Below are positions 2,448-4,809 of a stretch of DNA of 64,000 nt, one piece after another. Source of the DNA: Clostridium sp. Cult3. Its GTDB lineage: Bacteria > Bacillota > Clostridia > Tissierellales > Tepidimicrobiaceae. The notes under the pieces were generated by a model that was not told the DNA's origin, searched no databases, and worked only from the letters and a program-made list of their open reading frames with translations. Numbering within the stretch: position 1 is the stretch's first letter; each line of letters begins with the position of its first letter. The DNA is taken from the NCBI RefSeq assembly GCF_021655115.1, contig NZ_PPXY01000038.1, forward strand, positions 1-64,000, given 5' to 3'. A program made the position numbers and the translations under genes.

Positions 2448-3485
2448 TTATATAAAATATTCAATCTTTGCTCCTGGAAAATATTCTTCTGTTTTATTTA
2501 GAAAAAATTCCCTTAACTCATTTATTTCTTCTGGACTATAAATATATTTACCATAACCAAATTGTCCATATTTAAATTTCCTATCCTCTTCATTCATAGG
2601 AAGTTTGCTATTAGGGAAAACATTAAGTATATTGGATTTAGCCCTAAGAGTATAACGATGGGATATAAACTCAAAAGTTAAATCTTTAGGAGACCAATTT
2701 GCGGGCATGTTTTCATATAAATATTTGTCTAATAAAGCAAAAAGCTCTAAATATTCTTCTTCCCAGTTTTCAAATCTAAATATTGGAGCAATAATAAAAC
2801 CTATGGGATACCCTGCCTTTAACATTTTCGATGCTGCTATTACCCTGTCTAAAAGCTGAGGCGTTTTATGTTCAAAGTCTCTAATTGCCTTTTGGCAATT
2901 TAGACTAAATCTAAATCGGGTATGACTATTATGTTCTATATTTAAAAGGCTATCTATATTTGTAAATTTAGTTACAAATCGAAATCGTCCTAAAGGCTCC
3001 TTACCAAAGAATTCTATAGTTCTTTTAAGATTTCCAGTATACTTTTCCACAGGAACAGGATCTGATGTGGCAGCACCTTCAAATACAGTTATTTCTGGTG
3101 CTCTAGTTTCAATTATATTTTTTGTTATATCTAATATTTCTTCAATATTAACATATATTCTTAAGTAAGGTTTTGGTCCTAAAGTTGTAGATAAATAGCA
3201 GTACTCACACATACCAGGACAAGAAGTAGCTAGGGGAAGTTGATAATGGGCAGAAGGTTTACAAGTTTGAAAAGTCTTACCTCTTCTAACTCCAATGACT
3301 AAGGTCTCCTTTGCTTCCCTATAGGCTTCTGTAGGAGTATCTCCAGCTATACCAACAACTCTATTATGAGAAGTGGTAGGTTTTACTGGTATATTTGATT
3401 TTTTAAAGTAATCTACCAAATTTTTACCAATAGGATAGTCTAAAGCATCAGGTTCATAGAACACCTGCTTAGGAATGAAATCCAT
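2448..3485 (-). CDS. splB: Spore photoproduct lyase family radical SAM protein
   Basis: 345-residue SPL homologue, close to the usual ~340. SPL repairs the 5-thyminyl-5,6-dihydrothymine lesion in germinating-spore DNA using a [4Fe-4S] cluster and SAM. The radical SAM motif CPGMCEYC (CX3CX2C; C89, C93, C96 from this start) sits in a typical SPL context, KPSAHYQLPLATSC before it and YLSTTLGPKPYLRIYVNIEEIL after it. The C-terminal region (KFKYGQFGYGKYIYSPEE) is also typical. In Bacillus/Geobacillus SPL the segment reads FE-x-x-CTSD, with the cysteine acting as hydrogen donor; here it reads FEGAATSD, so that cysteine is alanine (A139). A cysteine occurs at C75 (TCKPSA). An in-frame TTG one codon upstream (3488) is an alternative start; a GGAGG box serves either. 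Confidence 0.85.
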   Translation of the reverse strand: MDFIPKQVFYEPDALDYPIGKNLVDYFKKSNIPVKPTTSHNRVVGIAGDTPTEAYREAKETLVIGVRRGKTFQTCKPSAHYQLPLATSCPGMCEYCYLSTTLGPKPYLRIYVNIEEILDITKNIIETRAPEITVFEGAATSDPVPVEKYTGNLKRTIEFFGKEPLGRFRFVTKFTNIDSLLNIEHNSHTRFRFSLNCQKAIRDFEHKTPQLLDRVIAASKMLKAGYPIGFIIAPIFRFENWEEEYLELFALLDKYLYENMPANWSPKDLTFEFISHRYTLRAKSNILNVFPNSKLPMNEEDRKFKYGQFGYGKYIYSPEEINELREFFLNKTEEYFPGAKIEYFI

Positions 3486-3609
3486 CAATATTATCTACCT
3501 CCAAAAATAAATTTCCTGGAAAACATAATACTAATCTAATATAGTAAATATATTTGTATATATTAAAATATCCAAATAAATATGTTAAAATACTACTAGA
3601 TGGTGGGAT

Positions 3610-4809
3610 ATGGAACATATTTATGAAATACTAGGAAAGGGTGGGGTTTTTATTTTGAATCCATTGAATTATGGTGACATATATAAATATCTAGAGGAAA
3701 ATCACATCATGATGGATTTGGAAGAAATAGATGACTTTAAAGATCTTTCTATTATGGATGACGATTTAGAAGGGAGACAAATATTTTTAGTTGGTGAGAA
3801 TCATGGAGTCTTGGCTAATGAGCAATTGAGGATGAAGTATTTAAAATACTTCAAACTCAAGACGAATTTTAAATACTATCTTTGGGAGCTGCCTTTCAGT
3901 GTTGCATTTTTTTTAAATAGATATTTGGAGACCGGAGATGAAAAAATACTTAGGGAAATCTATGAACCATTAAAGGGTACTTTTGCATGGAATAGGGAAG
4001 GTTTTAATCACTGGAAGGAGTTATACCAATTTAATACAAAATTACCCACTACAAGAAAAATAAAGATAATAGGTATAGATATAGAACATCAAATTGAAAA
4101 CGCCTTTAAATATATGCTTTATGTTCTTCCTGAAATTGATGATACCAAGGATATATTAAAAAAAATAAAAAAGCTTAGCAAGGATGCAAAGGGTGAAGAA
4201 ATAATAGAATTTTGTAAAGAGTTAAAAGGGGATATGGAAAAGAGGGATGGGTTTTACAAAAAACATCTTAAGGAAAATTATTATGGATTTGAAATAGTAA
4301 ATGACAATCTATTATCTAGATATAGGGTTTACCATGGAAACAATTTTAATGCTATTAGGGATAAGCAAATGTATGAAAATTTCATTAGAATTCATAATAG
4401 ATTACCAACAGGAAAATATTATGGACAATTAGGATTATCCCATGTATTTCAAAGGGGAACTCCTTATGTTAGATGGTTTGGTTCAGCTTTGATATCCAAT
4501 GAATCCATGTTTCAAGATAAGGTTTTATCAATAGTTTATGTTTACGATAATTGCGAATATTTATATCCAACGGATTTAAGGGATTATCAAGGTGTTATGA
4601 CTACTTTGGATTTAAAACTAGATATGTTAAAAAAATACGCTAAAGGTGAATGTACTCTTTTCAAGCTAAATGGCAATGATTCTCCATTTGATAAAAAACT
4701 ACTATGGCCTATTGTACATAAGATACCAGAAGGAGGCGTTACTACAGATTATTTTCAATATATCATATTGATTAGGAATTCCAAAGCTTTGACATCACTG
4801 AAGAAATAA
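3610..4809 (+). CDS. EreA/ChaN-fold hypothetical protein
   Basis: 399-residue protein, not recognised to family level. Visible motifs fit the erythromycin esterase/ChaN/TIKI fold: FLVGENHG (residues 59-66, Glu-x-His), LWELP (91-95) with a second glutamate, GIDIEH (155-160), and a late LGLSHVFQRG histidine. These are the positions that usually supply the metal or catalytic residues. There is no signal peptide, so it is probably cytosolic. A GGTGGG box lies unusually close (about 3 bases) to the ATG. It stands alone between spl (opposite strand) and threonine aldolase. The substrate is unknown; macrolide esterase activity should not be assumed. Confidence 0.5.
   Translation: MEHIYEILGKGGVFILNPLNYGDIYKYLEENHIMMDLEEIDDFKDLSIMDDDLEGRQIFLVGENHGVLANEQLRMKYLKYFKLKTNFKYYLWELPFSVAFFLNRYLETGDEKILREIYEPLKGTFAWNREGFNHWKELYQFNTKLPTTRKIKIIGIDIEHQIENAFKYMLYVLPEIDDTKDILKKIKKLSKDAKGEEIIEFCKELKGDMEKRDGFYKKHLKENYYGFEIVNDNLLSRYRVYHGNNFNAIRDKQMYENFIRIHNRLPTGKYYGQLGLSHVFQRGTPYVRWFGSALISNESMFQDKVLSIVYVYDNCEYLYPTDLRDYQGVMTTLDLKLDMLKKYAKGECTLFKLNGNDSPFDKKLLWPIVHKIPEGGVTTDYFQYIILIRNSKALTSLKK

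Follow-up and report, generated by a model that had tools for sequence, protein, structure and literature searches.

In Bacillus spore photoproduct lyase (SPL), C141 gives hydrogen to the thymine allylic radical and the resulting thiyl radical is relayed via Y99 and Y97 (PMC3742179, PMC5368176). The window, a 64,000-nucleotide stretch of Clostridium sp. Cult3 DNA, encodes an SPL homolog (splB) with alanine in the place of this cysteine, which raises the question of where such an enzyme would find its hydrogen donor. A sequence-only reading of the stretch had described the enzyme as lacking the donor and had suggested that it might use a nearby cysteine, C75, or some other donor, or might act on a different substrate.

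Identification of splB and Its Product

The splB ORF of the window is complete and encodes a full-length protein on the minus strand (Table 1). Translation probably starts at TTG 3488, one codon ahead of ATG 3485, because the related loci L002-L005 conserve this TTG together with a GGAGGT-type ribosome-binding site ahead of it. The product has 346 amino acids from the TTG and 345 from the ATG, and residue numbers used here are counted from the ATG at 3485.

The protein scored 524 bits against the equivalog profile TIGR04070 (cut-off 400; residues 4-346) and 452.6 bits against PF20903 (cut-off 27), while its score of 107.8 bits against the SPL-family profile TIGR03886 lay below the curated cut-off of 437.55. 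Its full-length identity to Geobacillus SPL is about 49%. An AF2 model (pLDDT 93.3) superposed on the crystal structures 4FHC and 4RH0 with a Z score of 46.7 and an rmsd of 1.5 over 340 residues, in agreement with the earlier statement that the rest of the fold is intact; the first Foldseek match was 4RH0, with six SPL entries all tied within error by Z. By membership and fold, the window protein is a spore photoproduct lyase.

Table 1. Coordinates of splB and of the codons discussed in the text.
Feature	Position in window	Strand	Remarks
splB, spore photoproduct lyase (SPL), clostridial donor type	2448..3488	minus	TIGR04070, PF20903, conserved ribosome-binding site and TTG
Ribosome-binding-site region ahead of TTG	3489..3510	minus	GGAGGT common to window and L002-L005
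C75 codon, likely hydrogen donor	3261..3263	minus	Cys in 129/129 clostridial-type rows; aligned with Geobacillus S76
Radical SAM motif C89-x3-C93-x2-C96 (CxxxCxxC)	3198..3221	minus	Cysteines invariant
Y95-C96-Y97, relay tyrosines flanking the last cluster Cys	3195..3203	minus	Correspond to Geobacillus Y96/Y98, invariant
A139 codon, site of the Bacillus/Geobacillus donor Cys	3069..3071	minus	Aligned with C140 of 4fhc

Residues at the Two Donor Positions

The window SPL reads FEGAATSD at residues 135-142, where the Geobacillus wild type has FEAACTSD, and its C75 lies within TCKPSA, where the corresponding wild-type Geobacillus stretch is FDSSKPSA. Alignment to wild-type Geobacillus SPL (PDB 4fhc) placed A139 on C140 and C75 on S76, which bears out the earlier description of both sites. 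The alignment is gapless near the motif and recovered no aligned cysteine, so that a register error for FEGAATSD, one of the two outcomes named beforehand as refuting the earlier observation, is ruled out. The cluster cysteines were found intact, as had been claimed, with C89, C93, and C96 all present and invariant, and both Y95 and Y97 were kept in 149 of the 149 rows having letters at both sites. Thus, the window SPL shares its fold, cluster motif, and relay tyrosines with wild-type B. subtilis and Geobacillus SPL (4FHC, 4FHD) but differs from them at the donor, which in those enzymes is a cysteine at 141/140 accompanied by serine at the C75 position.

The sole other non-cluster cysteine of the protein, C197, was also considered as a donor and rejected, being variable and cysteine in only 37 of 129 rows.

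Distribution of the Donor Cysteines in the SPL Family

The residues at positions 75 and 139 were then followed through the family. Relatives were collected as 69 loci from genome contigs, and in the phylum sample a TIGR04070 match was present in 211 of 398 genomes. The first alignment brought the window sequence together with the 69 loci and with the best 30 of the phylum loci, and each of its 99 rows lettered at both positions had Cys at 75 together with Ala or Ser at 139. Going by these sequences, this pairing is the usual clostridial state. The alignment proposed in the sequence-only reading, of SPLs from spore-forming Clostridia, therefore refuted the anomaly, since Ala is common in Clostridia and an alternative donor has been described for them; what had been called an enzyme "lacking" its donor has the combination that is normal across the clostridial-type family.

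The alignment was later extended with 40 more phylum genes and with plasmid-borne SPL-family genes drawn from Bacillus, Cyanobacteria, Acidobacteria, Alphaproteobacteria, and Deinococcus. Among the resulting 148 aligned rows, 129 had the cysteine at 75 only, 17 at 139 only, none at both, and 2 at neither; the latter are distant, short, paralogue-type sequences (L151 and the first gene of L152). Within the C75 group, C75 is the sole invariant non-cluster cysteine. The cysteine at the Bacillus 141 position, which is Ala139 in the window SPL, defines the Bacillus type only. The two donor cysteines are, therefore, mutually exclusive across the sampled SPL family, with a Fisher's p of 2e-20 that was computed on distinct rows, although related rows are not independent, and the number of independent switch events is small because the tree needs only about three changes between donor states.

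Four plasmid loci (L148, L149, L150, and L152), whose hosts belong to the Cyanobacteria, Acidobacteria, and Alphaproteobacteria, carry SPL-family genes with Cys at the Bacillus donor position and Ile or Val at 75. In the Roseomonas locus L152, two SPL-family genes are arranged in tandem, and neither cysteine is present in the first.

Most SPLs sampled in the phylum of the window are without the textbook Bacillus C141 donor, which removes the apparent anomaly, and for the same reason an alanine at the Bacillus position is not to be taken as loss of function.

Comparison With Known Donor Systems and Probable Role of C75

In the SPL of Clostridium acetobutylicum, likewise an anaerobic spore former, the conserved cysteine described in the donor role is C74, which precedes the radical SAM motif (PMC5368176, citing Yang et al. 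2017). C74 is projected to lie across the pocket from the relay tyrosine, so that closure of the pocket is required (PMC5368176). The window SPL is not known to differ from that enzyme in design, and C75 would be the counterpart of C74, to judge from its residue number and from the fact that no other cysteine outside the cluster motif is invariant. Purely at the sequence level, the mutually exclusive use of the two sites supports C74 as a donor, as had been inferred from biochemistry.

A second comparison is offered by Geobacillus thermodenitrificans SPL, in which the Cys76/Ala140 layout was engineered and of which the window SPL is a natural instance (49% identity; rmsd 1.5 to the model). PDB entry 4RH0 carries the title "Spore photoproduct lyase C140A/S76C mutant with bound AdoMet," and its sequence, which has Cys76 and Ala140, is the same as that of 4RH1. 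A rescue result was reportedly obtained by Benjdia in 2014, to go by the title of the paper, and 4RH0 is presumably an entry belonging to it.

Taken together, C75 is well supported as the putative donor of the window SPL by its conservation and by analogy to these enzymes, and we infer that the window protein acts as C. acetobutylicum SPL does. We are very confident that it is a normal clostridial-type SPL that repairs spore photoproduct (SP) with C75 as hydrogen donor. The chemistry of such a repair is taken from the literature (PMC3742179, PMC5368176): the [4Fe-4S] cluster would cleave SAM, the 5′-deoxyadenosyl radical would abstract H6proR from an SP lesion arising in SASP-coated spore DNA, and the lesion radical would fragment to the thymine allylic radical. 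C75 would supply this radical with hydrogen, in place of the cysteine that Bacillus has at 141, and the thiyl radical would pass via the conserved tyrosines back to 5′-deoxyadenosine.

Two other explanations were weighed against this assignment. The enzyme might have no protein donor at all, the product radical being quenched by external thiol or solvent in a slow or error-prone repair, as could be argued from the Bacillus C141A mutant, which gives TpT-SO2- as its main product in vitro (PMC5368176, PMC3742179), and from the approximately 20% TpT-SO2- made by C. acetobutylicum SPL. However, PMC5368176 gives about 80% TpT as the remaining product of this C74 enzyme, and C75 is retained in 129 of 129 sequences without the other cysteine, which would follow if the residue is required; we consider a donorless enzyme very improbable. 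Still less credible is a substrate other than SP, for which the donor substitution is the only argument. Speaking against such a substrate are a score above the TIGR04070 equivalog cut-off, the full-length identity to Geobacillus SPL with a near-identical predicted fold, the single copy of the gene, and the presence in the genome of genes for SASPs, the proteins under which SP forms. Of the earlier suggestions, then, use of C75 stands as well supported and of an already known type, while use of another cysteine fails on the variability of C197 and a different substrate finds no support. Since Ala is the common clostridial state and the alternative donor has been described, the case counts as already known: the window SPL with C75 as its likely donor is nothing out of the ordinary among the DNA-repair enzymes of anaerobic spore formers, and its alternative donor place is not new.

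A Possible Evolutionary Switch of Donor Site

In one SPL, L131 (G264:C20:78356-79372), position 75 is Ser and position 139 is Cys, and its long branch falls among the Cys75-type sequences in the tree. A single origin of the C139 state for Bacilli and L131 was not rejected (p-AU 0.42), and L131 possibly represents an independent donor-site switch or a transfer. It is conceivable, if somewhat short of probable, that the SPL family as a whole has two exclusive donor sites that were switched in evolution with no both-site intermediate among the sampled sequences, with perhaps an extra switch within the clostridial type at L131 and with the Bacillus site also being that of SPL-family proteins in non-sporulators. 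That the either/or pattern is so complete may be slightly new, as may the possible additional switch; the strict pattern over the family is a modest addition to the known alternative donor, and the sequences of such an either/or family are natural examples in which the rewiring of a radical-transfer path can be studied.

Genomic Context of splB

Only one SPL gene is present in the genome, with no second copy carrying the Bacillus donor found there, and four SASP matches were obtained, which together is consistent with a spore former making SP. A simple pattern for a sigma-G-like promoter gave no match ahead of splB, either in the window or in L002-L005, which is weak evidence, and neither splA nor an operon context was found at splB, the flanking genes varying among the window, L002, and L004. 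The closest relatives are the SPLs of Anaerosalibacter and Tissierella (77-87% identity), which were grouped with the window gene in the tree.

Within the taxonomic family, only 3 of the 20 genomes searched gave an SPL match, the window's own included, and one of the three is an internally deleted remnant. This remnant, carried by a close relative (L102:1481-1687, genome G410), has a large in-frame internal deletion by which the start MIDFIPKQVF is fused directly to the C-terminal ~60 residues (NVFPNS...), and it may reflect either real gene loss or an assembly join; the L070 match is probably the same contig as L102.

On the strand opposite splB, window positions 3610-4809 hold an ORF of 399 amino acids with a VGENHG motif and with no significant match in Pfam or NCBIfam. 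Directly downstream of splB, positions 1539-2440 hold a REP-associated (Y1) transposase gene and then two tandem 30-bp units (TGTACTGCACCAAGAACTGTCCCCGGTGCA). The genome contains no further copy of the 25-bp core of this repeat, even with up to 3 mismatches allowed, and in L102 the SPL remnant too has a variant of the repeat downstream of it.
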